Below, in pieces: positions 3,581 to 47,850 of a stretch of 64,000 bases of DNA. The translations under genes and the position numbers were made by a program. Source of the DNA: Salinarchaeum sp. IM2453 (lineage in GTDB: Archaea; Halobacteriota; Halobacteria; Halobacteriales; Salinarchaeaceae); contig NZ_CP081183.1 in assembly GCF_019693215.1 (NCBI RefSeq), positions 2,483,226 through 2,547,225 on the forward strand, read 5' to 3'. The notes beneath the pieces are model-generated. The model was not told where the DNA came from. It made no database searches and saw nothing but the letters and a program-made list of their open reading frames with translations. Positions within the stretch are counted from its first letter, which is position 1, and every line of letters starts with the position of its first letter.

Positions 3581-4930
3581 ATGTACGTGAATCCGATGTA
3601 TGAACATATGTCACAGCCAGATATCCCCGGTGATGTTGATTTTGTTCGGATGTTTTATGTTGGCAACGATGGGGTAGTTCGTGGATACATTGTCCCTGCA
3701 GACCGGATCAAAAGTGTTGCAGAAAATGGAATGAACCTAGCGAATGCGATGCAGTCGTTTATGTCACTTGATGATTTATCCCCAACAAGTTACTATGGCC
3801 CGGACGGGGCAGTCCGGCTGATGCCGGATATGTCCACATTCAAGTCACTTCCATACGAGCCTCGGACGGGATCAGTGATGTGTAATATCGAGAACCATGA
3901 ACAGGAACCATGGAGTGCAGATCCCCGGTCGACTGCACAGACATTTCTCGCAGAGCTAGACGTTAACGTTAATGCGGCGTTCGAGAGCGAATTTTATTTG
4001 CTTGAGCAGGGCGACGATCCAGATCCAATTGATGACTCTGTTTGCTTTGATCCGGCAGGGATGCAGCATGCCAGCAATGTCGTGTACGAAATTGTCGATG
4101 CGCTTGAAGCACAGGGAATGGATTTCGTAACTTATTATCCAGAATATGGCCCTGGACAACAAGAAGTAGTTGTTAGTCATGATGAGGGAATTACAGCTGC
4201 TGACAACCTTATTCGACTGAAGAATACTGTCAAAGGTGTCGCAATAAATAACGAGTTAGATACAACATTTCTCCCGATTCCATTCGAAGGTGCAGCTGGA
4301 AGCGGTTGTCATATTCATCTCTCACTTTGGGATGACGGGGAAAACCTGTTCCATGATCCACAGGAAGACGAACCATATCAGATTTCTAGAACAGCGCGGC
4401 ATTTTATTGGCGGCATCCTAGAACATGCTCCTGCACTTGTTGCGCTCACTGCCCCGTCAGTAAGCTCATACCGTCGACTTCGACCGCACATGTGGGCTTC
4501 CTCACACACATGCTGGGGCTTTGACAACCGAGAGGCACTTGTTCGGGTTCCATTTGCTGAACATTCCGACCCGGAAGACACGACCAGAATTGAATTCAAA
4601 GCTGGTGACAACACTGCGAATCCATACTTAGCATTACTTGGCGTCGTCGCAGCTGGCATGGATGGCATTGATCGTGAGTTAGATCCCGGAAAGCCGGTTA
4701 AAACAGATCCAATGGAGCTCTCAGAATCGGAGCGAGAAAACCGAGATATCACACGATTGCCTAAAACGCTTGGTGAAGCCGTGAATGAACTTGAATCAAG
4801 CACGTTCTTTGCTGAAGTGTTCGGGGAAGATCTCTTTGAATCCTATGTTGATGTGAAACAGGCACAGTGGAACGAGTTTACGGGCGAAACGACCGAATGG
4901 GAGCTGACAAACTTGCGACGATCATTCTAA
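3581..4930 (+). CDS. Glutamine synthetase-like gamma-glutamyl ligase
   Basis: The 449-residue protein is of the GlnA fold. Residues typical of the active site are visible: the ExE pair in FESEFYLLEQ, the Glu residues in PEYGPGQQEV, the His in GSGCHIHLSL, the Arg in RRLRPHMWAS, and the RIEFKAGDNTANPYL segment. The N-terminal beta-grasp region is short and divergent, as in gamma-glutamyl-polyamine or gamma-glutamyl-amide ligases rather than assimilatory GlnA. It is the first gene of a three-gene operon with a cysteine-hydrolase-like protein (1-base overlap) and an M20 peptidase, which argues for ligation of glutamate to an amine followed by hydrolytic steps. A TATA-like tttatttat lies near 3461. 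The amine substrate cannot be read from the sequence. Confidence 0.85.
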   Translation: MYVNPMYEHMSQPDIPGDVDFVRMFYVGNDGVVRGYIVPADRIKSVAENGMNLANAMQSFMSLDDLSPTSYYGPDGAVRLMPDMSTFKSLPYEPRTGSVMCNIENHEQEPWSADPRSTAQTFLAELDVNVNAAFESEFYLLEQGDDPDPIDDSVCFDPAGMQHASNVVYEIVDALEAQGMDFVTYYPEYGPGQQEVVVSHDEGITAADNLIRLKNTVKGVAINNELDTTFLPIPFEGAAGSGCHIHLSLWDDGENLFHDPQEDEPYQISRTARHFIGGILEHAPALVALTAPSVSSYRRLRPHMWASSHTCWGFDNREALVRVPFAEHSDPEDTTRIEFKAGDNTANPYLALLGVVAAGMDGIDRELDPGKPVKTDPMELSESERENRDITRLPKTLGEAVNELESSTFFAEVFGEDLFESYVDVKQAQWNEFTGETTEWELTNLRRSF

Positions 4931-5868
4931 TGACTGAAAGCATACCACCACAATTTCCGGCTGGAGAATTGTCTGTGACAATCGGACCAGGATTCCCGTC
5001 TATCCATGAGGAATATCGATCTCTCCGGGATCAACGGGACATGGTATGTGGAGCATATACGCTCACGTATTTGCTTCGGGCATATGGAATCACCCATTAT
5101 GATAACAATCAGTTGACGGTTGATGATGTTGCAGCGTTAGCGGGTACCGGCTTAGAGGAACGAAACCAGCGTCGACAGAACGCAATTCGTGACCAGATTG
5201 AAGACGGGAAGATTCCAGCATCGCGAGCAAAGCAATGGTATCCAAGCGAGTATCTTGAACGACGGTTACAGACGGTTGAAACAGGCGGAACAAGTGTAAA
5301 AGGAGTCGTTAAAGCCTGTGAAAGAGCTTCGGATGGATTGGTGTCAGCTATTCCAGTGCCAAGTATCATCGACGGGGAAGTGCAATTAACTCGTGATCGA
5401 TTCGAGACCATTGTGCGAGCGTTTCTTGCTGATAAGATTCCAGGACAGTTGATGGCGAACTATAATATGTCACACACATTTGCTCCAGCATCGTTACTGG
5501 GACATAAATACAATTTCACCAGCCTATTCACACAGTGGGACAATATTGACTATTTCAGGACGATGGACTGGGATATTGGTCACTTTACCTCAATTGCTGG
5601 GATCATCTCTCGAGAAGGATATGAACAGCAGTATCTTGTGATTCGTGACTCATATAAGACATTTGGCTGGAATGGATATCACTTACAACCGCTTTCGTTG
5701 ATTTGTGATGGTGTTGTACGAGAGGAAGATCACCGGGATGGAGGACTTATTATCGTTGTGCCAAATAGTGCAACAGACACCGTCATGGAGTTTCTTGAGG
5801 AGATCAACATGAAAACTGGACTGTGGGATAACGGGAGTCCATACGCACCATTACAAGACAATGAATAA
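4930..5868 (+). CDS. Cysteine hydrolase-like protein (C39-peptidase-like)
   Basis: I choose the ATG at 4930, which shares its A with the stop of the ligase gene; the frame stays open further upstream but those codons lie inside the neighbour. The 312-residue soluble protein has CGAYTLTYLLRAYG, with Cys40 followed by a helix, then a late GHFTSIAGI segment and VIRDSYKTFGWNGYH, the layout of a papain-like C39-type Cys-His-Asp/Asn hydrolase. No signal peptide or membrane helix is seen. The last 8 bases overlap the M20 gene. I infer an amide or peptide hydrolase acting in the same pathway as its neighbours. Assignment to a named family is uncertain (possibly DUF6885). Confidence 0.6.
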   Translation: MTESIPPQFPAGELSVTIGPGFPSIHEEYRSLRDQRDMVCGAYTLTYLLRAYGITHYDNNQLTVDDVAALAGTGLEERNQRRQNAIRDQIEDGKIPASRAKQWYPSEYLERRLQTVETGGTSVKGVVKACERASDGLVSAIPVPSIIDGEVQLTRDRFETIVRAFLADKIPGQLMANYNMSHTFAPASLLGHKYNFTSLFTQWDNIDYFRTMDWDIGHFTSIAGIISREGYEQQYLVIRDSYKTFGWNGYHLQPLSLICDGVVREEDHRDGGLIIVVPNSATDTVMEFLEEINMKTGLWDNGSPYAPLQDNE

Positions 5869-7378
5869 GACAAGCTTGACGCCAGCGGAACAACGATTCA
5901 TCGAAGCAGGAAATAACTGGATTGACCAACACCGCGATGGGATCCTCGAGCTACTGACTGAACTAGTTAATAGGCAGAGTCTCTCTGGCTCTGAAGGAAC
6001 GGCAGACGATCCAACGTCTGTCGTTGGGCATCTCTGGAATCGACTCCAAGCAGAAACAACATACACAGCGCTTGAAAGACAGCAAATTCCGCAGAATGTT
6101 GATTACGCTGAGCACCCCCGAGAGAATATTTATGCCACGATTGAAGGTTCGTCTGATGATACGGTTATTTTGACGACACATACAGATATTGTCGCTGAAG
6201 GGCGGGTCGACGCATGGCCGAATAATACGCCATTTGAGCCAACTGAAGGAATTGCAGAATACGTTGATGACAACGAAATCAGGTTGCAGACAGGATCTGT
6301 AACCAAGCACGGTTCAATTCGAGACCAGATGGACCGTGTCTGGAAGATGCGCGATCAGGACACCAAGCCTGTGCTAATTGGACGTGGTGTATATGACAAC
6401 AAAGCCTCCATCGCATGCTTGTTTGGGATGCTATGCGGCATTGAAGCGGGACTATCCAGCCATGGCCTGCAACTGAATGGGAATGTGGTTCATGGCCACC
6501 TTGTCGATGAGGAGATTGGTCAACTTGGAATCAAAGCGATGGTTGGATGGGATACAATGGATGGCTGGCTTGACACAACGCCGTTTGCTGACACAGTTGG
6601 TGTTGTACTTGAGGGTTCGTATGGATTTGTTCCGGTAATTGCTCATCGAGGGTTAGCATGGATTACGCTACGAGCGGAAGGGGAATCCACTCACGCCGCA
6701 ACTCCGCACCTTGGACATAATCCGGTTGTCGCAATGGGCAAAGCACTGGCAGAGTTGGAATCTAATTCATTCAAACAAGAGTTTAGTACACTATTTTACG
6801 ATGATCCGATCCTTGGCACCCCGACAGTTGCTCCAGGAACAACGATTGCCAGTGAGGGGATTCACTCAGTACAAGGAGATACAATAGATCGATCTGATCT
6901 TAATACAGTTCCAAGTTGGTGCGAAGCAACGCTTGATGTAAGAGTACCACGCTGGAAAGGGTTTCCAGAAGAACGCGCAGACATCTTAACGCAGATGGCA
7001 AACAAAGTAGAAATAGCTGCCAACCGGATGTCAGATGATGTTGAGTTTACTGCAACAGCCGCAACTGAGGACTTTTTTCCACCAATTGCAATTGCAGAAA
7101 CCAATGAAAAAGCACAATCTCACCCTCTGGTCGATGTCGCACGGGAGAGCACTAACCATACACTCGGCTACTCACCAGAAACTGAAATCGCTCCGGGCGT
7201 AACTGATGCGACCTTTTTGTATCACGGGACACGAGCACCGACACTCGTGGAGTATGGACCGGCAGGAGCGTGGTCTCACGAACCATGGGAATTTGTCGAG
7301 ACAGAGCAAGTGATTGATGGTGCCAAAACACTCCTTGAGCTATCAGTTAGACGGCTAGGAGTGACAGCGACAGAATGA
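5861..7378 (+). CDS. M20 family metallopeptidase (ArgE/DapE-like)
   Basis: The 505-residue protein shows the M20 metal-site motifs in order: the HTDIV His-x-Asp segment near residue 103, the bridging Asp in GRGVYDNKAS, the Glu-Glu pair in LVDEEIGQLG, and a late His in GAWSHEPWEF. A central dimerisation domain (about 265-395) begins after RGLAWITLRAEGESTHA. M20 enzymes hydrolyse dipeptides, N-acyl amino acids or amidated amino acids with two zinc ions. It overlaps the upstream gene by 8 bases and closes the operon. With a ligase and a cysteine hydrolase upstream it may remove a gamma-glutamyl or acyl group. The substrate is unknown. Confidence 0.85.
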   Translation: MNKTSLTPAEQRFIEAGNNWIDQHRDGILELLTELVNRQSLSGSEGTADDPTSVVGHLWNRLQAETTYTALERQQIPQNVDYAEHPRENIYATIEGSSDDTVILTTHTDIVAEGRVDAWPNNTPFEPTEGIAEYVDDNEIRLQTGSVTKHGSIRDQMDRVWKMRDQDTKPVLIGRGVYDNKASIACLFGMLCGIEAGLSSHGLQLNGNVVHGHLVDEEIGQLGIKAMVGWDTMDGWLDTTPFADTVGVVLEGSYGFVPVIAHRGLAWITLRAEGESTHAATPHLGHNPVVAMGKALAELESNSFKQEFSTLFYDDPILGTPTVAPGTTIASEGIHSVQGDTIDRSDLNTVPSWCEATLDVRVPRWKGFPEERADILTQMANKVEIAANRMSDDVEFTATAATEDFFPPIAIAETNEKAQSHPLVDVARESTNHTLGYSPETEIAPGVTDATFLYHGTRAPTLVEYGPAGAWSHEPWEFVETEQVIDGAKTLLELSVRRLGVTATE

Positions 7379-7788
7379 AGTGTCCCTGCCTACTCGCCGT
7401 CGTTGACGGATCATTAAGAAAGGGGAACCACTGCCTGCGTTCAGCTAAGGACAAATCAATTAACAGTTCTCAGTAATCCGATTATCTTTACTACAGTCTC
7501 AATTGGACGAACAATGGTCTCGCGCTGAATACATCCTCTGATCCTCTCTATTTTGTATCAACAATACTAACGCAATAGTGAAATTTACCCGCAAAAGCGG
7601 TAGAGAACTCAATAATTATCGAGAGGGTGCTATAATTTCCCACAGCGCCAACCAACGAATACAACCGCAAATTGTCCGACTTAACTTCATTAGACTAATT
7701 AAAAATCATCTTGGATTACCGAGGACTCTTAAATGATACTGTTCAGATCACAGACGAGTGTTATACCTTTGCACACTAACATATGTAT
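7379..7788. other. Intergenic region
   Basis: About 400 AT-rich bases between the M20 gene and the Ntn-hydrolase gene. I see no gene here. A TATA-like ttatac at 7761-7766 lies about 25 bases before the ATG at 7789, which fits a leaderless transcript starting at that codon. Confidence 0.5.
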
Positions 7789-8334
7789 ATGAGTACGGTT
7801 GTAGCGATTCAGACTGATCATGGGGTGGTCATTGCTGGTGATAGCCACGTGACACAGGCTGGAACAATTACCAGCACATCTGCTAATCGAGTGATTGAGT
7901 ATGACCAGATCGGCGCTGGCGTCGTTGGCCAAAGTGGAGCAGTCAATTCGTTTGAACGCAGGTTCGAGTCCGAGCTCAAAAAGTACGAGCTTGAGGCCAG
8001 CGGAGAACTTGCAATTGATGCTGCTAGCCAAATTGCTGTAGCGTGTGCAGAAAACACAGGCATCGAAGCTGTTGTTGGAGGTTACGACGAAAACAAAATT
8101 GCACAACTCCGACAAATCGACGACGATGAGTCCATTTTGCCAGAGCAACAGATAGCGCTTGGAAGTGGCGCACAGCTCGCGCTTGGACAGCTTGGAGCAG
8201 TTAACAATTCACAAAGTATAGCCTCAGCCGAAGAAACAGCTCGATCTATTCTCAAAACCGCTGCACAACGGGATCCAAGCACTGGCGGTGAAATCGATAT
8301 TTGGTCACTTGCCAACAATACAGAAAATCGATAG
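7789..8334 (+). CDS. Proteasome-like Ntn hydrolase with possible N-terminal Ser
   Basis: The 181-residue protein follows the proteasome beta fold: STVVAIQTDHGVVIAGDS at the N-terminus, a GSG turn near residue 128 and QRDPSTGGEID near the end. Aligned by eye with the archaeal beta subunit, the residue after Met1 is Ser in place of catalytic Thr1, Asp17 is kept, and Lys33 becomes Arg. Removal of Met would expose Ser as nucleophile. There is no propeptide. The ATG at 7789 is preferred over 7783 because a TATA-like box sits 25 bases upstream. It stands alone rather than beside proteasome genes. It may be a diverged peptidase or an inactive relative; the assignment to the superfamily is firm, the activity is not. 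Confidence 0.75.
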   Translation: MSTVVAIQTDHGVVIAGDSHVTQAGTITSTSANRVIEYDQIGAGVVGQSGAVNSFERRFESELKKYELEASGELAIDAASQIAVACAENTGIEAVVGGYDENKIAQLRQIDDDESILPEQQIALGSGAQLALGQLGAVNNSQSIASAEETARSILKTAAQRDPSTGGEIDIWSLANNTENR

Positions 8335-24229: not shown

Positions 24230-25225
24230 ATGTACCTCGGAATCGACGTCCACAAACGGTACGCACAGGTGGCAGTAATGGATGAGTCTGGAGAAATCGT
24301 CGAAGAGGTTCGCGTCGAGAACGCGAACCTCGATGACCTTGCACAGCGGTACGCTGGCGCACAAGCCGCGATAGAGGCGACCAGCAATTACTACCACATC
24401 CACGATACGCTGTCGGAGCATTTGGATGTGACTGTTGCTCACCCGAAGGAACTGAACCAGATCGCTGATACTGATAAGAAAACTGATCGTGTTGACGCCA
24501 AAGAACTCGCGCGGATGGTTCGGTTGAACTCCGTGCCTGAGAGTTATGTTCCGACCGACGAAATCAGGACGCCCGCGCACTCGTGCGCGGGCGACAGTCG
24601 TTAGTCGAACACAGGACAGAGTATGCCAACAAGGTTCACGGCCTCCTCTCTGATCACGGCATCAGCGAAGATGTGAAGCCGTTGACCCAAGAGGGACGAG
24701 AGTTCCTGCGGGAACTCTCGCTCCCGACGCCATGGAAATCGGTGTTGGAGTCATACCTCGAAGTGATTGAGACGCTCACTGATGAGATACAGAATCTCGA
24801 AGACAATCGAAGAACGCGCTGGGTCTCTGGAGGAGACCCAGCTGCTGATGACGATTCCTGGTGTGAGTTACTATACGGCGTTGACGATCTACGCTGAATT
24901 AGGCGAGATTGATCGGTTTGACGGTGACAAAGAAGTCATCAGCTACGTCGGGTTGAACCCGGTGATCCGCGAGTCCGGCGACTCGCGGATCGAAGGTGAA
25001 CTCTCGAAACGTGGTTCAGGGAGAGTCCGGTGGCTGCTCGTTCAGGCCGCTCATACTGCTGTCCACACCTGTAACGACGAGTATCTGAGTCGGTTCTACG
25101 AGCGGTTAGCTAGTCGGAAGAACTCACAGAAAGCAATCGTGGCAACAGCTCGAAAGATGCTGGTGTCGATGTACCACATGCTTGACCGAGGCGAAGTGTA
25201 CGACCCACCTGGTGTAAGCGCGTAG
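24230..25225 (+). pseudogene. IS110-family transposase, frameshifted
   Basis: The start MYLGIDVHKRYAQVAVMDE carries the RuvC-like DEDD domain, and the C-terminal part MTIPGVSYYTALTIYAELGE then VGLNPVIRESG carries the Tnp20-type domain of IS110. Two frameshifts break the frame: near 24569, where one G seems lost in the aggacgcc stretch, and near 24808, where the frame moves again before IEERAGSLEETQ. The product cannot be made as one chain, so the element is inactive unless supplied in trans. Confidence 0.8.
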
Positions 25226-27512: not shown

Positions 27513-27911
27513 AATAGATAACGTTTATCGCAGGCAGACGTCTCGCGATTGATGGGCTACCAGTCGAATGCCCCCAGGTCAGGGACGGTGAATGCGACTG
27601 GTCAGGCCAGACCCCCCGTGTTCAATGGGGAAAACAGGGGTCCGCTGGCAAGCATCGAAGGGCCCCAAGCAGTTGACGCAGAACATCCACGTGTCAATGA
27701 TAGCAGATCGTGTATAATTACCTTATATTGTAATTGTACATTTGCATACCTATGAAAGTCTGAATATATATCCACAAAAGCATTTTATACCATAAGTCAG
27801 ACTAACTGATGTCGTCAATGAATGGACAAACGGTATCTGTTAATAGTTTAGTTTGTACAAATGGTCAAAAGTTTTCTGTAGTCGTAGCTTCTGCTGGGGG
27901 TGTCTCCTCTT
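27513..27911. promoter_or_regulatory. Region upstream of urtA with an inverted repeat
   Basis: 27530-27700 is GC-rich and looks like old transposable-element DNA, with no readable gene. TATAATTAC at 27713-27721 and GTAATTGTA at 27730-27738 form an inverted repeat with 8 of 9 pairs and an 8-base spacer, in the AT-rich upstream region of urtA. The half-sites resemble those of the candidate NikR operator but the spacing differs. A regulator for urea uptake may bind here. Confidence 0.35.
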
Positions 27912-29162
27912 ATGTCTGATTTTACTCGACGTTCGTTCGTTGCAGGAGTTGGGGGCGCAAGTATTGCAGGCGCGAGTGGGTGTCTTGGTGTTCTCGGAGG
28001 CGATGACGGCCCAACGGTTGGAGTTCTTGAGGATCGAACTGGTGAATTCCAACTCAATGGAACGCCAAAATGGCAGGCAACGTTATTGGCAATTGAAGAG
28101 ATTAACGAGAACGGTGGCATATTAGGTGAGGAAATCAATGTTGAAGACCCAGATCCACAGTCAGATAACAATCGATACCGAGATTTGACTGAACGGCTCA
28201 TCTACCAAGATGAAGTTGATGCGCTGTGGGCAGGATACTCAAGTGCAAGTCGAGAGGCAATTCGGGATATCATCAACGATGAAGATCAACTGTATTTCTA
28301 CACGACTCAATATGAAGGCGGAGTAGCGGACGATACCATCTTTCCTGTCGGAGCTACAGCTCGTCAACAACTTGGAGCCGTGACGCCGTATATGGCAGAC
28401 GAGTTCGGTGATGATATTTACATCATCGCTGCTGACTACAACTTCGGTCAGCTTTCCGGAGATTGGGTAAACGTCTACGCCAAGGAAAATGGCTACAATA
28501 TTGTCGGTGAGGAATACATCCCACTCGGTGAAACTGAGTTTTCATCTGTGATTAATAATATTCAGGATGCTGATCCAGACTTCATCATGTCGATGCTGGT
28601 GGGGAACAACCATGAATCATTCTACGAACAGCGAGACGAAGCAGGACTTGACATTCCAATTGGCAGCTCTACGACGCTCGCTCAGGGGCATGAGCACCTT
28701 CGATATGATCCAACTGCGCTGACAGATGTATACGTTGGAGTGAATTACATGGAAGAACTCCCATCAGATCGAAATGAAGACTTCGTCGATCGGTTCTACG
28801 ATGAGTATCCAGATGCAGATTACTTGAACCAAGAGGCACAGAACAATTACTTCTCGGTGTACATGTGGAAAGAGGCAGTCGAAGAAGCCGGCACATTTGA
28901 TCAAGACGATGTAATCGAAGTGCTTGAGGATGGTATGGAGGTTGAAGCGCCGGAAGGCGACATTGAACTTGATGGTGCAACCCACCACATGACCCATCGC
29001 ATGCGGGTAGCACATTGCGATGAGAATCATGACATCTCATTTGACGCAGAACAGCTAATTGAGCCAACCTTCCTCCGCGAAGAGATTGGTGTTGACCTGC
29101 GTGAAGAGTCGCTAACAACCCAGTACGAACCAACTGATGTGTACGACATAGACGATGTGTAA
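27912..29162 (+). CDS. urtA: Urea ABC transporter substrate-binding protein UrtA
   Basis: I take ATG 27912 rather than GTG 27900 because it gives the Tat lipoprotein signal directly: TRRSFVAGVGGASIAGASGC with lipobox ASGC. The mature part is a type I periplasmic-binding fold of the branched-amino-acid/amide family: VGVLEDRTGEFQLNGTPKWQ, YYTTQYEGG-like segments, and YIIAADYNFGQLSGDWV. The closeness to UrtA/FmdD-type amide receptors, and the urease operon downstream, support urea as ligand. It sits on the outer face of the membrane and feeds UrtBCDE. Confidence 0.88.
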   Translation: MSDFTRRSFVAGVGGASIAGASGCLGVLGGDDGPTVGVLEDRTGEFQLNGTPKWQATLLAIEEINENGGILGEEINVEDPDPQSDNNRYRDLTERLIYQDEVDALWAGYSSASREAIRDIINDEDQLYFYTTQYEGGVADDTIFPVGATARQQLGAVTPYMADEFGDDIYIIAADYNFGQLSGDWVNVYAKENGYNIVGEEYIPLGETEFSSVINNIQDADPDFIMSMLVGNNHESFYEQRDEAGLDIPIGSSTTLAQGHEHLRYDPTALTDVYVGVNYMEELPSDRNEDFVDRFYDEYPDADYLNQEAQNNYFSVYMWKEAVEEAGTFDQDDVIEVLEDGMEVEAPEGDIELDGATHHMTHRMRVAHCDENHDISFDAEQLIEPTFLREEIGVDLREESLTTQYEPTDVYDIDDV

Positions 29163-29195
29163 CAGTAATATTCGACATAATAGAGGTGAAAAACA

Positions 29196-30113
29196 ATGTA
29201 TGGGTCAACAATACTTGTAATCGACGGGGTTTCAGAACTCGTCGCTTTCGTATTCCAATATCTCAACCGATTTGCCTTTATTGCACTTGCAGCAGTTGGA
29301 CTCGCCATTATTTTTGGTATGATGGGTGTGATTAATCTTGCACATGGCGAGTTCATTATAATTGGTATGTATGGAACGGCTCTTACCTATCACTCTGGAG
29401 TACCCTTACCGCTGGCAATGGTTGCTGGTGTGATTGTAACTGCTGTCTTTGGAGTTATTATTGAACGAACTGTAATTCGGCACCTATATGACCGACTGCT
29501 TGATTCCATGGTTGCGACATGGGGTCTTGGACTGGTGATCAGTCAGTTACTGTTGATTATCTTTGGATCAAGTCTATCGAGTATTTCAATGCCAATGGGT
29601 GGAATCTCATACGGTGGTTATTCCGCAACCACCTATGAGACTGTATTTCTGCCAGCGATGGTCATTGCGATTCTGATCGTGCTGTATGTCATATTCACGC
29701 GAACAGAGTTTGGCGTCAAGGCCAGAGCGACAATCGACGACCCTGAGACAGCCCGGGCGATGGGTGTCGATACTGATCGAATGTATGCTATTACATTCGG
29801 AATTGGAGCTGGGCTTGCCGGAGCGGCTGGGGCACTTGCTGCCCCAACACTGTCAATTACGCCAGATCAAGGGAGTGTGTTCCTGCTTGAGGCGTTCGTT
29901 GCTGTAGTTGTTGGAGGGCCGTCTGTGATCATTGGAACCCTGTCTGCCGCAGGTGTGCTCGGATTCTTCCATGCTCTGTTCACCAATATGTATGGGACCT
30001 TCATAGGACAGATGGCAATGCTCATTGTTGCGATTATCGCCCTGCGAGTACTTCCTGACGGAATCACTGGATACGTCGAAAAACTACGTGAGCGACGGAG
30101 TGAATCATCATGA
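29196..30113 (+). CDS. urtB: Urea ABC transporter permease UrtB
   Basis: The 305-residue protein has about eight membrane helices of the LivH type: AAVGLAIIFGMMGVINLAHG near the start and KARATIDDPETARAMGVDTD before the cytosolic coupling helix. It starts 33 bases after urtA and overlaps urtC by 4 bases. With UrtC it forms the membrane channel for urea. In some organisms UrtB has a long N-terminal domain; here it is the short form. Confidence 0.88.
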   Translation: MYGSTILVIDGVSELVAFVFQYLNRFAFIALAAVGLAIIFGMMGVINLAHGEFIIIGMYGTALTYHSGVPLPLAMVAGVIVTAVFGVIIERTVIRHLYDRLLDSMVATWGLGLVISQLLLIIFGSSLSSISMPMGGISYGGYSATTYETVFLPAMVIAILIVLYVIFTRTEFGVKARATIDDPETARAMGVDTDRMYAITFGIGAGLAGAAGALAAPTLSITPDQGSVFLLEAFVAVVVGGPSVIIGTLSAAGVLGFFHALFTNMYGTFIGQMAMLIVAIIALRVLPDGITGYVEKLRERRSESS

Positions 30114-31225
30114 CCAAGACACAATCGATCACAGGCAAAATCAAACACGCACTGTCGTTGATTACCGGCCCCAATACCTACGGGAATACGAAGTTGTTCT
30201 GGGGAGCATTTGCCATTGCAGTAGCAATGTTGCTGCTGTACCCACAGTTTACAAACCCATGGGCAGTCAACAACATGGCCCGGTACTTTACGCTCGCATT
30301 TCTGGCATTGAGCCTTGCTGTTATCTGGGGATTCAGCGGAATTTTGAGTTTCGGACAGGTAGCGTTCTTTGGGATTGCGGGATACGCGTTTGGCGTTGTC
30401 ACGTTCAATTATGGATCTGCGACGGGAATTACGGCTGCAATATTTGTTGCTGTCTTCGTCGGAACGCTGTTCTCGTTAATTCTTGGATATTTCATGTTCT
30501 ACGGCGGTGTTCGCGATGTGTACGTAACGATTATCACACTCGTTGTTGCAATAGTGCTGTACACATTCATGTCACAGACGGCCGGCAGTGAGTGGGCTAT
30601 CGGTGATGCCAGACTCGGAGGATACAATGGAATGCCAGGAATTACAGATATTACACTTGGCATCGGCGAAGCCGGCTTTGTACTTGAGGGTAACCGGTTC
30701 TACTATGCGACACTGTTGACGTTAATCGGAGTGTATCTCTTGCTCCGTATCCTTGTGAATAGTTCATACGGGATGACAATGGTTGCAATTCGAGAGGATG
30801 AGCAACGAACAGCAACATTTGGATACAATGTCACGTTCATCAAGCTCATGGTATTTACTCTCGGAGGTGCAATTGCATCACTTGGCGGTGTTTTCTATGT
30901 TAGCTGGGGGAACTACATCGATCCCAGTGTGTTCTCGATAACATTTGCTGCCTTACCTGTTGTATGGGTCACAGTTGGTGGACGAGATTCACTCATCGGA
31001 GCCATTGCAGCAACGATTATTATTGAGCGCATCTCAACCGAGTTGGCAGCAACAGGGACGGAGTGGGCACTAGTGCTTGTTGGTGGACTGATGATGTTCG
31101 TGATTCTGGTGATGCCAGCTGGTGCTGCACAATATGTCGATCGTGCTGTTGGGTATATCACACGTTCAATATCAGACGATTCCGGCTCAATTCGAAATAT
31201 TCGAGAGGAGATCAATGATGACTAA
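30110..31225 (+). CDS. urtC: Urea ABC transporter permease UrtC
   Basis: The 371-residue LivM-type permease has GFSGILSFGQVAFFGIAGYA and VAIREDEQRTATFGYNVTFI, the conserved pore and coupling segments. It overlaps urtB by ATGA. It is the second channel subunit. Its last codons overlap the small reading frame at 31215 that links it to urtD. Confidence 0.88.
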   Translation: MTKTQSITGKIKHALSLITGPNTYGNTKLFWGAFAIAVAMLLLYPQFTNPWAVNNMARYFTLAFLALSLAVIWGFSGILSFGQVAFFGIAGYAFGVVTFNYGSATGITAAIFVAVFVGTLFSLILGYFMFYGGVRDVYVTIITLVVAIVLYTFMSQTAGSEWAIGDARLGGYNGMPGITDITLGIGEAGFVLEGNRFYYATLLTLIGVYLLLRILVNSSYGMTMVAIREDEQRTATFGYNVTFIKLMVFTLGGAIASLGGVFYVSWGNYIDPSVFSITFAALPVVWVTVGGRDSLIGAIAATIIIERISTELAATGTEWALVLVGGLMMFVILVMPAGAAQYVDRAVGYITRSISDDSGSIRNIREEINDD

Positions 31226-31298
31226 CAGCAATTCAGTACAACAAAATGTAGCACCGGGTTATCAACCGCATGCCATCTTAGGAGGTGTTATCCGATGA
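31215..31298 (+). CDS. Small overlapping reading frame between urtC and urtD
   Basis: ATG-ATG at 31215-31220, inside the last codons of urtC, opens a 27-residue frame (TNSNSVQQNVAPGYQPHAIL and a few more) whose TGA overlaps the urtD ATG (ATGA, 31295-31298). It contains the urtD ribosome site ggaggtg. It bridges a 69-base gap with start-stop overlaps at both ends, as expected for translational coupling. Whether the peptide has a function is unknown; it may only carry ribosomes to urtD. Confidence 0.3.
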   Translation: MMTNSNSVQQNVAPGYQPHAILGGVIR

Positions 31299-32068
31299 GT
31301 TCCGCTAGCGACATCTCTGTCAAGAAGAAACCAGCCGTTGCAGCGACTGGTGAATCTCGTGATACATTATTAGCAACCGATGGGCTGACAAAACATTTTG
31401 GAGGACTAACAGCCGTTGATGATGTTGATTTTACGATTGATGAAGGTGAGCTTCGGTGCTTGATCGGGCCGAACGGTGCTGGTAAAAGCACATTCATGAA
31501 TCTGATTGTCGGAGAGCTCACACCGAGTGATGGACGAATATTCTTTGACGGCCGGGATTTAACCGACCAGTCAACCCACGAGCGCATTGACGCTGGCATT
31601 AGTGTCAAGTTTCAGTCTCCACACGTGTACTCTGACCTTACGGTAAAACAGAATTTACAGATCCCGCTGCAGCGACTTGATCGTGATACTTCAACAACGA
31701 TAGAACAAACGCTTGATCAGATTGATCTCGCTGATGTAGCTGATACAGCTGCAGGAGATCTCTCACATGGACAACAACAGCGACTGGAGATTGGAATGGC
31801 CACAACGCTTGATCCAAAGCTGCTTTTACTTGACGAACCAGTTGCTGGAATGTCAATTGAAGAAACACAACAGGTTGGGGATTTACTACTGACACTGAAC
31901 GAACAGGGAATTGCACTCCTCGTTATCGAGCATGACATGGAGTTTGTGAGTCAAGTATCAGATAAGGTCACGGTATTAAATGAGGGTGCAATCTTCCGAC
32001 AAGGGCCGATCGAAGAAATTGAATCTGATCCCGATGTGCAACGCATTTATCTGGGTGATGACGCATGA
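31295..32068 (+). CDS. urtD: Urea ABC transporter ATP-binding protein UrtD
   Basis: The 257-residue LivG-type ATPase has Walker A GPNGAGKS, signature LSHGQQQRLEIG, Walker B LLLLDEP, and LLVIEHDMEFV. A 30-residue N-terminal extension precedes the ATPase core. The ribosome site ggaggtg lies 7 bases before ATG. It overlaps urtE by 4 bases. It drives urea import with UrtE. Confidence 0.88.
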   Translation: MSSASDISVKKKPAVAATGESRDTLLATDGLTKHFGGLTAVDDVDFTIDEGELRCLIGPNGAGKSTFMNLIVGELTPSDGRIFFDGRDLTDQSTHERIDAGISVKFQSPHVYSDLTVKQNLQIPLQRLDRDTSTTIEQTLDQIDLADVADTAAGDLSHGQQQRLEIGMATTLDPKLLLLDEPVAGMSIEETQQVGDLLLTLNEQGIALLVIEHDMEFVSQVSDKVTVLNEGAIFRQGPIEEIESDPDVQRIYLGDDA

Positions 32069-32763
32069 GCCTTGCTGTCTCAAATCTTGCTGCAGGCTAC
32101 GGAGAAACCCCGATTATTCGGGAGGTGAATTGTACAATTGAGTCGGGAGAAATCGTCGGTATTATCGGGAAAAACGGTGTCGGAAAAACCACGCTGCTGA
32201 AGACGATTATGGGACTTCTGTCACCAGACCAAGGATCTGTTTTGCTCCATGACGAGGAGATAACCAGTATGTCGGCAGATGATATTGCCAAACGAGGCGT
32301 AGGATATGTCCCACAAGGCAGAGATGTTTTTTCTGGGCTATCTGTTGAAGAAAACCTCCTGATTGGAACTTCGGTCGGGGCTGGTGATACGACGCTCTAT
32401 GATCGGGTGTACGAATACTTCCCGATCCTCGAGGAACGCGCGGATCAAGACGCTGAAACGCTCAGTGGTGGACAACAACAGATGCTCGCGATTGGTCGAG
32501 CGCTCGTTGGCAATCCTGACATTATGATTGTTGATGAACCATCTGAAGGTGTCCAGCCGTCGATTGTTCAATCTATCAGTGATAACCTTCGGCAGATCAA
32601 TACTGAGATCGACACGACCATCTTGTTTGTCGAACAAAACTTGTCTGTCATTCAGACACTCGCAGATCGATGTTACGCGATGGAGAAGGGAACAATTGTA
32701 GAAGAGATTCCACGAGCTGAGCTTGATAATACTGATCGGCTTAGGCAGCACCTTGTTGTCTAA
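32065..32763 (+). CDS. urtE: Urea ABC transporter ATP-binding protein UrtE
   Basis: The 232-residue LivF-type ATPase has Walker A GKNGVGKTT, signature LSGGQQQMLAIG, Walker B IMIVDEPSEG, and LFVEQNLSVI. The Q-loop lies in VGYVPQGRDVF. It ends the transporter operon; 303 bases separate it from urease, long enough for a separate promoter. Confidence 0.88.
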   Translation: MSLAVSNLAAGYGETPIIREVNCTIESGEIVGIIGKNGVGKTTLLKTIMGLLSPDQGSVLLHDEEITSMSADDIAKRGVGYVPQGRDVFSGLSVEENLLIGTSVGAGDTTLYDRVYEYFPILEERADQDAETLSGGQQQMLAIGRALVGNPDIMIVDEPSEGVQPSIVQSISDNLRQINTEIDTTILFVEQNLSVIQTLADRCYAMEKGTIVEEIPRAELDNTDRLRQHLVV

Positions 32764-33066
32764 GTTCGCTTAGTCTGTCAGGCTCTTTTTTATCTGATTG
32801 TTGACGGAGAGAATCAATTGAGCTCTGCGTAACACTGCTTATGCATCTCTCAATTTTGCTCGATCTTGACATATGTGTATCAATTACAACATACAATATA
32901 TTTTGCTTGCATTCGAGCAGAACCCAATGAGAAAATACGACAAGTATCCGGTTTTATTCCCGCACCAAACAAAATTTTCGTGCAACTTTACCCTTATTTC
33001 TGGACCAGCGAATTAACTCAACATGTATCGAAATTCCATGACTGTAGTTTCTTGTGGTGATCTTCT
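32764..33066. other. Intergenic region between urtE and urease
   Basis: A T-rich run gctcttttttatc follows the urtE stop (about 32780-32792) and could end transcription. The rest is AT-rich with TATA-like tracts near 32890-32900 (acatacaatatat), probably the urease promoter area. No gene is visible. Confidence 0.4.
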
Positions 33067-33468
33067 GTGACTAATTTTATACCTGGTGAAGTGATCCTTG
33101 CAGATGATCCTATAGAGATCAATGCAGGGAGAAAAACAATTACACTGACTGTTGAGAATACCGGTGACCGCCCTATTCAGGTCGGGTCACACTTTCATTT
33201 CTTTGAGGTCAATCCTGCACTAGCGTTTGATCGTACGAAGGCACTGGGATATCGACTTAATATACCGGCAGGCACAGCAGTTCGGTTTGAGCCGGGACAA
33301 CAGCAAGACGTGACACTGGTTTCTATTGGCGGAAATCGGATAATCAGAGGCATGGCAGGGCTGGTCGACGGACCGGTTGATGACCCAGATGTTCGAGAAC
33401 AAGCAATTGAACGGGCACGTGAACAGGGCTATTTTGCACACCATCGTGATCAGGAGGCTGAGAAATGA
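33067..33468 (+). CDS. ureB: Urease beta subunit UreB
   Basis: The protein of 133 residues starts at GTG 33067, which is supported by ggtgat 8 bases upstream; the next in-frame ATG would remove most of the fold. It shows the beta-subunit core [36 protein letters not shown] and [17 protein letters not shown]. It packs against UreC in the urease complex. The stop overlaps ureC by 4 bases. Confidence 0.9.
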
Positions 33469-35165
33469 GTCGTCGTCTCAATCGATCAGAATACACGGAC
33501 TTGTATGGAGCAACAGTTGGCGACCAAATCCGTCTTGGTGACACAGCACTGCTCGCTGAGATTGAAGCAGACCACACTGTACCAGGTGAGGAAGCTGTCT
33601 TTGGCGGAGGGAAGACAATGCGCGACGGGATGGGTATGCAACCGACGACAACACAGAGTGATGGCGCGCTTGACTGGGTATTTACCAATGTTGTCGTGAT
33701 TGATCCAGTGCTGGGCATCGAAAAGGGAGACCTAGGTGTTCGTGATGGACAGATTGTCGGATTTGGAAAGGCAGGCAATCCTGACACAATGGATGACGTC
33801 GACATGGTTATCGGGCCCAGCACAGACACCGTACCTGCTGATGGATTAATTGCAACAGCCGGTGCCCTCGACATCCATGTGCATTTTAATAGTCCACAAT
33901 TGGTCGATCATGCACTATCCAGTGGTATTACAACGATGTTTGGTGGTGGCTTTGGTGGCGGAGCAACAACCTGTACGCCAGGGCCGCGGAATATCCGTCG
34001 GTTTTACCAGGCAACAGATGACTGGCCAGTCAACGTTGGATTCTATGGTAAGGGCAACTCCAGCGCAAAACCAGCGATCACTGAACAAATTGAGGCGGGC
34101 GTTGTCGGACTGAAATTGCATGAGGACTGGGGATCAACACCAGCCGCGATTGATACCTGTCTTGAGGTTGCCGACGAGATGGACGTGCAAGTAGCAATTC
34201 ATACTGATACACTGAACGAGTCCGGGTTTGTTGAAGAAACATTTGACGCAATTGACGGCCGGACAATTCACACGTTCCATATCGAAGGGGCTGGTGGGGG
34301 ACATGCTCCAGATGTAATGGAACTAATCAAGTATGACCACATGCTGCCATCCTCGACAAACCCATCGATGCCGTATACCACAAACACGTTTGATGAGCAT
34401 CTTGACATGGTGATGGTCTGTCATCACCTTGATCCAAATATTCCTGAAGATGTTGCGTTTGCTGAATCACGAATTCGATCTGAGACGATTGCAGCAGAAG
34501 ATGTTCTCCATGATATGGGCGCAATTTCGATGATGACTTCAGACTCCCAAGCAATGGGACGGCAGGGCGAAGTAATCAGTCGGACTTGGCAGACAGCAAG
34601 CAAAATGAAACAACAGCGTGGTGAACTCGATTCCGATGGAGCTGGTGATAATCACCGAATTAAGCGGTATGTTGCAAAGTACACGATTAATCCAGCTCGC
34701 GTTGCTGGAATTGACACATACGTTGGCTCGCTTGAACCCGGAAAGCTTGCAGACATCGTACTCTGGGATCCGGGATTTTTCGGTATTAAACCAGACACAG
34801 TGTTCAAAGGTGGATTCCCAGTCCATAGCGAGATGGGTGAAGCAAACGGATCACTAATGACATGCGAACCAATCATGCAACGAAAACGTGCTGGTGCATA
34901 TGGGCGTGCACGCAATGCCCTCTCGATGGCGTTTGTCAGCCAGCGCGCGCACGACCGAGGAATTGGAGATGTATATCAATTAGAATCGATGGTGATGCCG
35001 GTCAACGGGACTCGAGACGTGTCCAAAGACGACATGGCGTACAATGACTTCCAGCCAGAAAACATCGATATTGATCCACAGACGTTTGAAGTTGCGGTAG
35101 ATGGAGAACCAGTGACGTGTGAGCCAGCCGATGATATTCCGCTTGCACAACGATATTTCCTCTGA
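33465..35165 (+). CDS. ureC: Urease alpha (catalytic) subunit UreC
   Basis: The 566-residue subunit has all nickel-site elements: His-x-His in [11 protein letters not shown], the Lys to be carbamylated in [12 protein letters not shown], His residues in [12 protein letters not shown] and [15 protein letters not shown], the flap VCHHLD with the catalytic His, and the Asp ligand in [10 protein letters not shown]. It hydrolyses urea to ammonia and carbamate. Length is normal. It is the second gene of the operon. Confidence 0.95.
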
Positions 35166-35177
35166 GGTGATTACTAC

Positions 35178-35549
35178 ATGAAACTTACTCCAAAAGATCA
35201 GGAACGACTCACGATATTTACTGCAGCAGAGATGGCACGACGACGAAAAGCACGAGGGGTTCCGTTAAACCATCCTGAGGCAGTCGCATACATCTCTGAC
35301 TGGGTATGTGAAGGCGCACGAGAAGGAAAGTCAGTTGCCACACTCCGGGAAGAAGCAACGCAGTTGTTGTCGCGTGAAGATGTCATGGATGGTGTTCCAG
35401 AGATGATCAACACAGTGCAGGTTGAGCCAGTGTTTCCGGATGGAACAAAGCTTGTGACAGTACACGATCCAATTCGGGCTGAGAACCCCGACCAGCTTGA
35501 TGATGTTCCGACATACGACGTAACAGAACGTGGAGGTATTCAGTCATGA
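35178..35549 (+). CDS. ureA: Urease gamma subunit UreA
   Basis: The 123-residue protein has [35 protein letters not shown] and [20 protein letters not shown], the gamma-subunit signature. The ribosome site gaggtgat lies 6 bases upstream. Length is longer than the usual 100 residues by an acidic tail. It overlaps ureG by 4 bases. Confidence 0.92.
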
Positions 35550-36193
35550 GCCCCGACCACCGGGACGTTGCGACAATCGGTATTGGCGGTCCTGTCGGAT
35601 CGGGTAAGACCGCGCTTGTACAGGAACTTGTGCCAATTCTTGATCAACGGGGATACGATGTAGGTGTAATTGCCAACGATATTATGACACAGGAGGATGC
35701 TGATCGGCTACAGGAGTCATTTTCTGATCTCCTTCCCGAGGAACTCATTTCTGGGGTCGAAACCGGTGCATGTCCACACACAGGAATTCGGGAGGATCCA
35801 TCGATGAATATTGCTGCAGTGAATGACTTTGTCGATCACGCCCCTGATCTTGATGCTGTAATCATCGAGTCCGGTGGCGATAACTTAGCCGCAACGTTTG
35901 ATCCGGAACTGGCTGATTACTTTATATTTGTAATCTCGGTTGCCGAAGGAGACGACATCCCAAGAAAACGTGGGCCAGGTGTTGTTGAAGGAGACTTGCT
36001 TGTAATCAACAAAGTGGATCTTGCGGAGTATGTCGATGCGGATGTCGACCAAATGCTTGCTGATGCTGAAACAGTTCGAGATGGACCAACAGTCCTAACA
36101 AATTGTCGTGCCAGCGACGGAATCACAGCTGTAGCCGATCACATTGAAGAGTCTGCACTCTTTGGCCTTACTGGAACACAGGAGACGATTTAG
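35546..36193 (+). CDS. ureG: Urease accessory GTPase UreG
   Basis: The 215-residue SIMIBI GTPase has the P-loop [15 protein letters not shown], the metal site CPH in [13 protein letters not shown], and the NKVDLAEYV guanine motif. It delivers nickel to UreC in the UreDFG complex. It overlaps ureA by ATGA, and ureD follows after 8 bases. Confidence 0.92.
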
Positions 36194-36201
36194 CGCAAAA
36201 G

Positions 36202-37203
36202 ATGTCATCGCCACATCAGTCTGAGATTGATCCTGAACTCGAAGATGAGGATACAGACGCAAGCATTCCAGCAGCATTTGAGGCGTACGCTGAAGAATCG
36301 CTGCCGAACGCGACCCCTCGCGGGCACGGGAAAGATGGAACACTCTTTGCGCGGTTTGCACGAACCGGATCCAAGACAAGACTTGTTCGTGATCGGTTTT
36401 CAGTTCCATTACACCTGACAGGCACACTGAGCCACGATCCGCTCGGACCAACGGCCTGCATTCAGGAACCAACCGGTGGCGTCACACATGGAGACCGACA
36501 CGAGATTACAATCGATGCGATCGACGGGGCAACTGCTGTGGTCACAACACAATCAGCAACAAAAATCCACAGCATGCACAGCGATTATGCACACCTTGAT
36601 ACGACGATCACGGTTGATGAATCGTCATATCTTGAGTATTTACCCGGTGCAGTAATAGTGAACGAGGATGCCCGCTTACTACAGACAACAGAAATCAATT
36701 TGGCATCGACAAGTGTGTTGCTGACAACGGACATTTTCGCTCCAGATGGACTGTCAGCACATACACCATTTAGCTTCGAGCATTACCGGTCACAGATTGA
36801 TGTTTATCAGGAGAACGCGCTTACATACACAGACGTTACGAATATTGAGCCTGACACAGCATCTGAGAATAACTACCCGCCTGCCCAATTTACTGCGGAT
36901 AACCGGATTGGTACACTCTATATCTTTGCTCCAGATCCACTATCGGCAGCTCCAGTTGTTTCGGATCGGTGTAATTGCACGCTTGCTGATCTTGTCGAGC
37001 AAATTAGATCCTGTATACAGGATGGTAGTGATGATAACCCGGGGCTGACTGCTGGTGTTACGCGACTGCCAGCTGATGCTGGCATATGTGTGCGAGCCAT
37101 TGGGGAGACAACTGATATGCTTCAGGGACTGTTCAGCGAAGTTCGGGAGTCATTCCGGCAGATAGCATTTGACATTTCGACGCCTACAGATCGGTGGTAC
37201 TAA
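36202..37203 (+). CDS. ureD: Urease accessory protein UreD
   Basis: The 333-residue protein carries the UreD/UreH-type scaffold: FSVPLHLTGTLSHDPLGPTA, GGVTHGDRHEITIDAI, TQSATKIHSM and LEYLPGAVIVNEDARLLQTT. It scaffolds UreF and UreG on the apo-urease. The N-terminal 55 residues are an acidic extension. Its stop shares its last base with the ureE start. Confidence 0.9.
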   Translation: MSSPHQSEIDPELEDEDTDASIPAAFEAYAEESLPNATPRGHGKDGTLFARFARTGSKTRLVRDRFSVPLHLTGTLSHDPLGPTACIQEPTGGVTHGDRHEITIDAIDGATAVVTTQSATKIHSMHSDYAHLDTTITVDESSYLEYLPGAVIVNEDARLLQTTEINLASTSVLLTTDIFAPDGLSAHTPFSFEHYRSQIDVYQENALTYTDVTNIEPDTASENNYPPAQFTADNRIGTLYIFAPDPLSAAPVVSDRCNCTLADLVEQIRSCIQDGSDDNPGLTAGVTRLPADAGICVRAIGETTDMLQGLFSEVRESFRQIAFDISTPTDRWY

Positions 37204-37790
37204 TGCAAATCATCGAATCAATTAAAGGCAATATCCACGACGACCCAGAGCTTGCATCGACGTATGAACAACACCAGGAGGCTGGAACGGTTGACTATGC
37301 TGTCATTGACCCAGACGACCGCGTCAAATCACGACTTCGCGTAACGACGGCTGCTGGGATCGATCTCGGGATTGTTCCCGGGTCAAGAGAACTTCAGGAT
37401 GGAGATGTGCTCTTACACGAGGATAGCCGAATGATTATCCTTCAGTTTGCTGAAGAGGAAGCGTTCGTTATTGACCTCCCCGAGGCGATATCGACTGACA
37501 CAGCGATCAAGCTTGGCCATCGTATCGGGAATCAACACTGGGACCTTGCGGTCGAGGGCAACGCAGTGTACTTCCCAATGGAGGCTGATCGTGCGATCAT
37601 CGAAGACGTGCTTGCAGAGGTAATACCCACAGCTGCTGAGACAAGAACTACGACGGTTGATCCATCAACATTTATCGATACGACGACAGCCAATCACGAG
37701 CATACAGACGATACACATAATCACAGCCACGATACCAGTGATCACCACCACAAACATGATCACGACCACACGAAAGACCATGACCACTGA
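37203..37790 (+). CDS. ureE: Urease nickel chaperone UreE
   Basis: I choose ATG 37203, sharing an A with the ureD stop, over GTG 37194. The 195-residue protein has the UreE peptide-binding N-domain (VKSRLRVTTAAGIDLG) and the metal domain (LGHRIGNQHWDLAVEGNAVYF). The tail is a long His-Asp-rich run from about residue 163 (HEHTDDTHNHSHD and on), a nickel reservoir. It passes nickel to UreG. It overlaps ureF by 11 bases. Confidence 0.92.
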   Translation: MQIIESIKGNIHDDPELASTYEQHQEAGTVDYAVIDPDDRVKSRLRVTTAAGIDLGIVPGSRELQDGDVLLHEDSRMIILQFAEEEAFVIDLPEAISTDTAIKLGHRIGNQHWDLAVEGNAVYFPMEADRAIIEDVLAEVIPTAAETRTTTVDPSTFIDTTTANHEHTDDTHNHSHDTSDHHHKHDHDHTKDHDH

Positions 37791-40778: not shown

Positions 40779-41848
40779 TACTCACCGACAGAGAAGCTAA
40801 TAGTTTCGAGTCCAAAAGATGTGCATGACCAAACACGGCAACAAGATCCCGGGGGTGACTGTCGAACAAGTACGCGAGCAACTTGCTGAAGAGACTGACC
40901 CGAAAGCAATCAAACGATTAACTGTCGCACGAGAGTACCTTGACGGTCTTTCTCCTGCAGAAATTGAAACAAAGTACGGCTGGCACGAACGGACTGTCTA
41001 CGGCTGGTTGAACCGCTTCGAAGAGCGCGGCTTCGAGGCCGCGCTCTACGATGCCAATCGGCCCGGACAAGATCCAGAATTAGCTGAAGACCAGTTCGAA
41101 GAGTTTGCTAAAACACTCCACCAACCGCCTGAAAAAGCAGGATACGATGAACCAGCATGGACTTCGAAACTGGCCCGTCAGTACCTCATCGAAGAGTACG
41201 ACGTAGCGTACTCACTCCGTCATGTACAACGACTCATGAAGAAGGCCGAGGTTTCTTGGAAGAAACCACGGCCGGAGCCGTCTTCTGCTGATGAGGAAGA
41301 ACTCGAACAGTACGACGAAGACCTCAAAAAAAGTCGGGAGACGTGACGAAGATACAACGGTCATCACGATTGATCAGTTTCGGAAAGCAGTTGGCGCAGA
41401 TCTCACGTACGCGTGGTTTCCAGTTGGCGAGAGGCCGACCGTGGACGTGTCGGCCTCTCAAGATGGACTCAATTTTCTGGGAGCACTCACAGAGAACGGC
41501 GAGACCATGTTTTTGGAGTGTACTGGCTCGTTCACCAAGGAAGTCACCGTGCGGTTTTTCGAAGCGCTCCAGGCCAAGTTTGGTGAGAAACTCTTGATTG
41601 TGTTGGACAAAGGATCGTACTTCACAGCGAACAAAGTCAAGGAATTCGCGGAAGAAACGAAGATAGAACTTCTCTATCTTCCAACTGGAATGGCGAAGCT
41701 CAACCCAACAGAGGAGTGCTGGCGACAACTGAGATCAGCACTCGGCAACAGATACTTCGGAACGGTTGATGAGCTTCGTACTGGAATTCGATCAGCACTG
41801 GACACAATCAATCCGCCGGGAATCTATCAATATCTCTGTCGGTGAGTA
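40779..41848 (+). mobile_element. IS630-type insertion sequence
   Basis: Perfect 16-base terminal inverted repeats, tactcaccgacagaga (40779-40794) and tctctgtcggtgagta (41833-41848), are flanked by TA on each side (40777-40778 and 41849-41850), the target duplication of the IS630/Tc1 group. Length is 1070 bases. The perfect ends point to a recent insertion. Confidence 0.88.
40825..41845 (+). CDS. IS630-family transposase in two overlapping frames
   Basis: The first frame (40825-41346) has the helix-turn-helix and linker: SPAEIETKYGWHERTVYGWL and YSLRHVQRLMKKAEVSWKK. The second (to 41845) has the DDE catalytic domain: Asp in TVITIDQF, Asp in LIVLDKGSYF and Glu in LNPTEECW. They overlap at a run of seven A near 41326-41333; the catalytic frame is reached by a +1 shift. 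This could be programmed slippage at the A run or a real frameshift that inactivated the gene. All three DDE residues are kept. Confidence 0.75.
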
Positions 41849-46666: not shown

Positions 46667-47254
46667 CTAATCGTTCTCAACTATGTTAACATCGTCTGAA
46701 GGTTCTTCCGCTGTTGTGATAATCTTGGCGTCGATGTCATCAGTTTCGGATGTTTCTGTATCTAATATAAACTTCACATCTATTCCAGAAGTGTCGATCT
46801 TAATACCAATCGGCACCTCTCCTTCTCCAATTTCTATCTTCCCAACAGCTTCCTCCCCGTCCAACGGCTCATTACGGTTGTCTCCAAGAATAAAGTCAAT
46901 ACCGTCTATGTCGACATTATCGAAGTCTCCCTCAAGGTAGACTGTCTGAGTGCCTTGGTTCTCAACGAAAAAAACGTCCTCAAGAACGTATACGGAGTTT
47001 GATCCCGGTCCACGGGAGTCAGCTGGATCTCCTATGACATCGTTTATATCGAACTGGATTTTCCCATCGCTAATCGACGAATAAGCAGGCCCTTCGTCCT
47101 CATTGGGTACGAGACGCAAGAGCGCATCTCTGTCACCAGCAACTTCAACTGTGAGTTGACGCTCCGCCTCAACACTCGTGAATGCACCTGTGCCTGCGGC
47201 CACGCCACCAACAGCGGCGATACCGAGAGTTCCAAGTAGTCGTCGTCGCTTCAT
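46667..47254 (-). CDS. DUF1102-like exported protein A
   Basis: The 195-residue protein starts with a Tat-like signal (MKRRRLLGTLGIAAVGGVAA) and the family motif GAFTSVEAERQLTVEVAGDR. The mature part is an acidic beta-sandwich that contains NQGTQTVYLEGDFDNVD, a typical strand pattern of the family. It is the third gene of a run (47851-48525, 47257-47823, 46667-47254), starting 2 bases after the stop of the second. It likely forms part of a secreted or surface structure. Confidence 0.7.
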   Translation of the reverse strand: MKRRRLLGTLGIAAVGGVAAGTGAFTSVEAERQLTVEVAGDRDALLRLVPNEDEGPAYSSISDGKIQFDINDVIGDPADSRGPGSNSVYVLEDVFFVENQGTQTVYLEGDFDNVDIDGIDFILGDNRNEPLDGEEAVGKIEIGEGEVPIGIKIDTSGIDVKFILDTETSETDDIDAKIITTAEEPSDDVNIVEND

Positions 47255-47256
47255 AA

Positions 47257-47823: not shown

Positions 47824-47850
47824 ATCTTTACTCTCTTATTACCCGGAAGT

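Follow-up and report, generated by a model that had tools for sequence, protein, structure and literature searches.

A run of three overlapping genes in the archaeon Salinarchaeum sp. IM2453 encodes a glutamine-synthetase-like ligase, a cysteine protein of the DUF6885 family and an M20 metallohydrolase. We judge the chances about even that this trio constitutes a variant of the catabolic pathway for gamma-glutamylated amines of the putrescine type, namely one that employs new hydrolases. The genes lie in a stretch of 64,000 nucleotides (hereafter the window; positions 2483226-2547225 of a 2.66 Mb genome). The ligase step is the best-supported part of the proposed mechanism, and the puzzle is the presence of two different hydrolases in one coupled unit. 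The three open reading frames (ORFs), whose products all exceed Pfam cut-offs, are the following:

3581..4930, plus strand: probable gamma-glutamyl amine ligase of glutamine-synthetase fold, 449 amino acids (PF00120, 340 bits, with the N-terminal domain PF16952, 39.8 bits; NF045547, 605.5 bits against a cut-off of 650; E304 replaced by W305 and D53 by A54).

4930..5868, plus strand: putative DUF6885 cysteine enzyme of predicted papain-clan fold, 312 amino acids (PF21819, 141 bits; invariant Q35, C40, H218 and D240; AF2 models).

5861..7378, plus strand: M20 metallohydrolase of a rare archaeal branch, 505 amino acids, proposed gamma-glutamyl deacylase (PF01546 and PF07687; TIGR01910, 113.7 bits).

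Reading of the ORFs bears out the overlaps of 1 base (ligase and DUF6885) and 8 bases (DUF6885 and M20) given in an earlier note on this DNA. The DUF6885 start is the ATG at 4930; a mechanical ORF list begins the same frame at a GTG at 4867. Guanine-plus-cytosine content is 47.7% in the trio and 48.1% in the window, within which Rfam yields no match.

Aligned with a glutamine synthetase of the window genome itself, the cluster ligases and their relatives keep ten metal-, glutamate- or ATP-binding positions. At two further positions (numbering of 4LNN), E304 is replaced by tryptophan and D53 by alanine, serine, threonine or valine in all eight sequences, while the genome's glutamine synthetase has glutamate and aspartate there. 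The residues so replaced in the window ligase, W305 and A54, occupy the two acidic positions that handle ammonia. According to the accessible part of PMC6478659, a Pseudomonas gamma-glutamyl amine ligase and FluG carry tryptophan for E304 and valine or serine for D53, and by the residue roles given in that part all eight ligases display the pattern of gamma-glutamyl amine ligases. The assignment of the window protein to these enzymes, which agrees with the gamma-glutamyl ligase proposed in the earlier note, is thus supported by its residue pattern. We rejected a true glutamine synthetase on the strength of W305 and A54, and two other glutamine synthetases with the canonical motif are encoded in the genome. 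Each of the six ligases scanned has NF045547 (gamma-glutamylputrescine synthetase) as its best NCBIfam match; the cut-off of 650 is reached in three, namely those of the Haladaptatus caseinilyticus trio (702.2), of genome G222 (708.2) and of Halorussus (684.9); a second Haladaptatus ligase falls below it (633.9).

The trio was compared across six distinct DUF6885 loci: the window, Haladaptatus caseinilyticus (NZ_CP111041), Haladaptatus halobius, Saliphagus infecundisoli, Halorussus litoreus and genome G521, those of H. litoreus, S. infecundisoli and H. halobius having come from a profile search of genome contigs. The M20 gene follows DUF6885 at all six loci and the ligase gene immediately precedes it at five; in Halorussus a PotD-like binding protein takes that place, and a ligase related to the others is found beyond M20. 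The 1-base and 8-base overlaps are identical in the window, both Haladaptatus species and S. infecundisoli. G521 belongs to a different class of the same phylum (Archaeoglobi, at a guess) and carries a run of permease, class III aminotransferase, ligase, DUF6885 and M20, with a gap of 5 bases between ligase and DUF6885 and an overlap of 23 bases between DUF6885 and M20. The earlier note had left it to be seen whether the trio recurs; it does so beyond close relatives and into another class of the phylum.

DUF6885 itself is rare. Among 392 genomes sampled from the order, four carry a member above the Pfam cut-off; a sample of 392 from the phylum has two, the window genome being one of them, and one of 59 from G521's class has one. 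These three samples overlap. Short matches below the cut-off in G113 and G286, and one in G006 (E 2.2e-4, 28% over 89 residues), are left out of the counts. Viral contigs contain no DUF6885 relatives. Plasmid searches return Haladaptatus only, plus a single Streptomyces plasmid match (E 0.06) that we took as chance, the ORFs of its region reading as ketosynthase-type proteins.

Four residues, Q35, C40, H218 and D240, are invariant in all six DUF6885 members, including that of G521 at 33% identity; the earlier note had named the lack of a His-Asp pair in a model as a result that would refute it, and in the alignment the Cys-His-Asp set is constant. Two AlphaFold models (four sequences) reach predicted TM-scores of 0.71 and 0.73. 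For the first, the top Foldseek match is phytochelatin synthase 6th5 (8.9e-4); the second has no match better than 1e-3, and the 50 matches listed for it do not include phytochelatin synthase. VIA places phytochelatin synthase 2bu3_B first for both models (Z 14.4, root-mean-square deviation 3.3, 182 residues aligned; Z 14.8, 3.1, 180 aligned), followed by family 22oc (Z 12.7 and 14.0, tied with phytochelatin synthase in model 2), the pseudomurein endoisopeptidase PeiR (11.9 and 12.1) and the C39 domain of PCAT1 (10.2 and 11.6), and the high-Z chains listed for both models are mostly of the papain clan. Glutamine, cysteine, histidine and aspartate occur in the order of that clan (CA) upon a papain-like predicted fold. 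With moderate confidence we therefore regard DUF6885 as adopting a papain-clan fold, of C39/phytochelatin-synthase-like type, in keeping with the C39-like cysteine hydrolase of the earlier note.

The closeness to phytochelatin synthase, seen in the models, is offered as a lead only. PF05023, the phytochelatin synthase family, matches none of the six DUF6885 members at E 10, and sequence searches of solved structures with DUF6885 profiles return chance matches only. A profile alignment against five phytochelatin synthases (two archaeal, three plasmid-borne), itself not significant, does place the cysteine regions in register. By eye, a GH motif seems to precede the catalytic-type aspartate in both families, with Tyr-Lys shortly behind it in most members. 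Membership in the phytochelatin synthases by sequence was rejected, there being neither a PF05023 match nor significant profile similarity, as was a secreted protease, because the DUF6885 sequence has no signal-like N-terminus.

The third protein exceeds the cut-offs of PF01546 and PF07687 and keeps the metal-ligand motif of M20 enzymes. Across nine aligned members the catalytic-type residues, which we take to be the metal ligands and the general base, are conserved throughout, with glutamate or aspartate at one position. The best M20 models are ArgE/DapE N-acyl deacylases, and TIGR01910 (DapE-ArgE) gives 113.7 bits, under its cut-off of 217.6; LysK or any other named M20 enzyme was rejected, no model being over cut-off. 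A search at E 1e-60 detects this M20 branch in six genomes out of 322 from the order, namely the four with DUF6885, G062 and G222. That all four DUF6885-bearing genomes of the order fall among these six has a naive chance of about 3e-8, two of the four being of the same genus. At nine intact M20 loci the ligase is in the same run in six, near in one and lacking in two; G597 was not counted, since its ligase, which stands with a permease and an aminotransferase, is cut by one contig edge and its M20 by another. Small AstE/AspA-like deacylase genes were also observed near M20, in Halorussus litoreus (L015 2517-3326, by its sequence start only, and 5773-6549) and in G062 (L049 12793-13581).

Enzymes of the M20 family strip acyl groups from amino acids; one of them, the LysW-gamma-lysine hydrolase LysK, cleaves an amide on the gamma-carboxyl of glutamate. 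Given this chemistry and this precedent, and given that G222 has the ligase with M20 alone, an M20 enzyme would be a chemically natural deglutamylase.

The genes that surround the trio elsewhere fit a setting in amine catabolism. A class III aminotransferase, an APC permease, whose best model is the general amino-acid transporter TIGR00909, and an amidohydrolase_2 protein are each found at four of the six DUF6885 loci, as counted by family scans at some loci only and by relatives across genomes at the rest, and at most haloarchaeal loci at least one of these three accompanies the trio. Other neighbours across loci are a PotD-like binding protein and an aldehyde:ferredoxin oxidoreductase; the Halorussus locus contains both a PotD-like protein and a PotA-like ATPase. 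Amidohydrolase_2 is paired with the ligase at five archaeal loci, and the cluster amidohydrolase is present in four of seven genomes searched. G222 has ligase and M20 adjacent, together with an amidohydrolase. In G521 (L022 3947-8149) an aldehyde:ferredoxin oxidoreductase gene, two genes past the operon, and a PAS-domain sensor-like gene are found downstream, both on the operon's strand, and Natronorubrum bangense has an annotated aldehyde ferredoxin oxidoreductase C-terminal-domain protein about 10 kb from M20.

From these elements we propose the following route. The ligase would spend ATP on an amide bond between glutamate's gamma-carboxyl and an amine; a diamine or polyamine, putrescine for instance, is the likeliest substrate. 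Its residues, family and neighbours suggest as much. In the fuller clusters, the class III aminotransferase and then an aldehyde-oxidizing enzyme would convert the end of the amine that carries no glutamate, yielding an omega-amino acid. M20 would hydrolyse the gamma-glutamyl amide to glutamate and the amino acid, and DUF6885, acting through a Cys-His-Asp acyl-enzyme, may cut or transfer a further gamma-glutamyl amide within the pathway, for example at the opposite end of a polyamine glutamylated twice. No orthologue of the cluster aminotransferase was found in the window genome, so another enzyme would perform that step or the substrate differs; more broadly, general enzymes may stand in there for aminotransferase, permease and amidohydrolase. 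The earlier note's proposal that a gamma-glutamyl group is added and later removed is partly supported: the neighbours fit amine catabolism, with the substrate and the deglutamylating hydrolase as proposals. What the analysis shows directly is gene content, coupling, conservation, residue patterns and predicted fold; the reactions themselves are inferred. More tentatively, and with the balance tilted against it, we suggest that DUF6885 founds a new papain-clan class acting on the gamma-glutamyl amides of small amines, beside a new M20 deglutamylase.

Several results weigh against this proposal. The NF045547 cut-off is missed by the ligases of the window (605.5) and of G521 (458.9). The mean predicted local distance difference test (pLDDT) scores of the DUF6885 models are only 66.9 and 66.4, and hhalign detects no significant profile similarity to the phytochelatin synthases (probability 1%, E 0.052, 37 columns). 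Two of the nine intact M20 loci, in G062 and on the Natronorubrum bangense plasmid, have no such ligase nearby, and G222 has no DUF6885. Amino-acid racemase models, too, match the cluster aminotransferase, and for the permease no model reaches its cut-off. In the window genome, relatives of the cluster aminotransferase are only 30-32% identical and those of the permease 25-27%, and the cluster amidohydrolase has no match at 1e-5; as judged by sequence, that genome is without orthologue-level copies of all three. It accordingly shows no pair of the FluG/SCO6961 type (amidohydrolase_2 beside the ligase), and G521 also has no amidohydrolase.

These missing amine-type accessory genes count in favour of a different substrate. 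The trio might handle, for example, an amino acid, a monoamine or a gamma-glutamyl dipeptide or osmolyte, which we hold to be rather unlikely; TIGR00909 as the best model of the APC permease and the amino-acid aminotransferase and racemase models that best match the aminotransferase speak in its favour. Set against it are NF045547, best for every ligase scanned, and the PotD-like protein and PotA-like ATPase of Halorussus.

A serious rival, albeit an unlikely one, reverses the roles of the two hydrolases: DUF6885 would be the gamma-glutamyl amide hydrolase, a substitute for PuuD, and M20 would act before the ligase as a deacylase that releases the amine from an N-acylated state, for instance an N-acetyl or N-succinyl diamine. 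The N-acyl deacylases among the best M20 models and the AstE/AspA-type genes near M20 in Halorussus and G062 favour such a reversal, as does the resemblance of DUF6885 to phytochelatin synthase, a binder of gamma-glutamyl substrates. The pairing of ligase and M20 in G222, which lacks DUF6885, argues the other way, since M20 may suffice there unless, for instance, the amidohydrolase takes over.

It is considerably less probable that DUF6885 is a gamma-glutamyl transpeptidase whose cysteine acyl-enzyme moves the glutamyl group from product to fresh amine, saving ATP, with M20 as the final hydrolase. Phytochelatin synthase is generally known to cut the bond after cysteine and not the gamma-glutamyl bond, similarity of fold does not show the type of reaction, and direct evidence for transfer is lacking. 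What commends transfer is that two amide-cutting enzymes of unlike chemistry in one unit suggest different roles, and that phytochelatin synthase is described as both transpeptidase and peptidase in the accessible part of PMC3561135.

A chance or merely regional cluster with no shared function is very improbable and was rejected, for although so rare a family as DUF6885 leaves few loci to carry the case, the trio recurs in a distant genome, gene order and overlaps are conserved in distant genomes and two rare families co-occur.

Downstream of the trio lie a divergent proteasome-type protein, ABC transporter genes, a short-chain dehydrogenase, a regulator and a sodium:solute symporter, among which there is no obvious partner. 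The first of these (7783-8334, plus strand, 183 amino acids) resembles a proteasome beta subunit and is immediately downstream of the trio; it matches PF00227 with 81 bits and the archaeal proteasome model TIGR03634 with 78 bits against a cut-off of 224, and by these scores reads as a divergent proteasome relative. At 27900-37790 (plus strand) a periplasmic-binding-protein ABC transporter set is followed by urease genes, two identified by family scan and the rest by ORF reading. Small exported-looking proteins with a common start of EADR...DAYL type are encoded at 46667-49596 (minus strand) and 58288-59208 (plus strand); of three scanned, one gives a weak DUF1102 match and the others match nothing in Pfam. 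Transposase genes of IS110, DDE_3 and IS66 type lie at 24230-24897, 41291-41845 and 43595-45049, the first two apparently split.

Our literature search, limited in coverage, returned no paper naming DUF6885, no biochemical work on that family or on the M20 branch, and no description of the trio or of a haloarchaeal gamma-glutamyl/aminotransferase cluster. The analysis gives DUF6885 a first testable role and suggests a means by which archaea may take glutamate off amines that carry it.

Among known systems, LysK is an M20 enzyme that cleaves an amide on the gamma-carboxyl of glutamate, the reaction type proposed here; it differs in that no LysK model is among the 25 families listed for the window M20. 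Phytochelatin synthase of the cyanobacterial Alr0975 type (PF05023) ranks first among solved folds against both DUF6885 models by VIA, tied with 22oc in the second, and shares the Cys-His-Asp set, but DUF6885 has neither its Pfam match nor significant profile similarity, and no link to glutathione was seen. Streptomyces coelicolor GlnA3/SCO6961 and fungal FluG likewise place a gamma-glutamyl ligase beside, or fused with, an amidohydrolase_2 protein; Streptomyces glnA3 adjoins an amidohydrolase_2 gene and both are polyamine-inducible, as stated in the part of PMC5403932 available, and the accessible accounts of these systems make no mention of DUF6885 or M20.

A comparable archaeal protein is GlnA-2 (HFX_1688) of Haloferax mediterranei, a haloarchaeal glutamine-synthetase-like protein without the residues for ammonia, which was assayed as a glutamate-putrescine ligase and for which a Puu-like pathway was proposed (PMC8394153, in its accessible part). 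The earlier note knew of no described pathway with this set of genes; for the ligase step, that work supplies one. As far as the same part of the source goes, the GlnA-2 gene lies between MATE and ABC transporter genes, near glnA-3 and not with DUF6885 or M20, and the hydrolase step is assigned to no archaeal protein, so that deglutamylation is left open there.

The Puu pathway of E. coli (PuuA-PuuB-PuuC-PuuD) proceeds, as the route proposed here would, by ATP-driven gamma-glutamylation of a diamine, oxidation and removal of glutamate. PuuB, PuuC and PuuD were not found among the 10 proteins scanned (window 3.6-14.4 kb), the remaining genome not having been searched. The trio locus differs from Puu in having no oxidase or PuuD-type hydrolase, with M20 and DUF6885 as the hydrolase candidates, and the fuller archaeal clusters use an aminotransferase in place of the oxidase. 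Should the more tentative reading hold, with DUF6885 as a new class beside a new M20 deglutamylase, such an archaeal amine pathway common to the haloarchaea and a second class of the phylum would represent a further, unrelated answer to the step that PuuD performs in E. coli.

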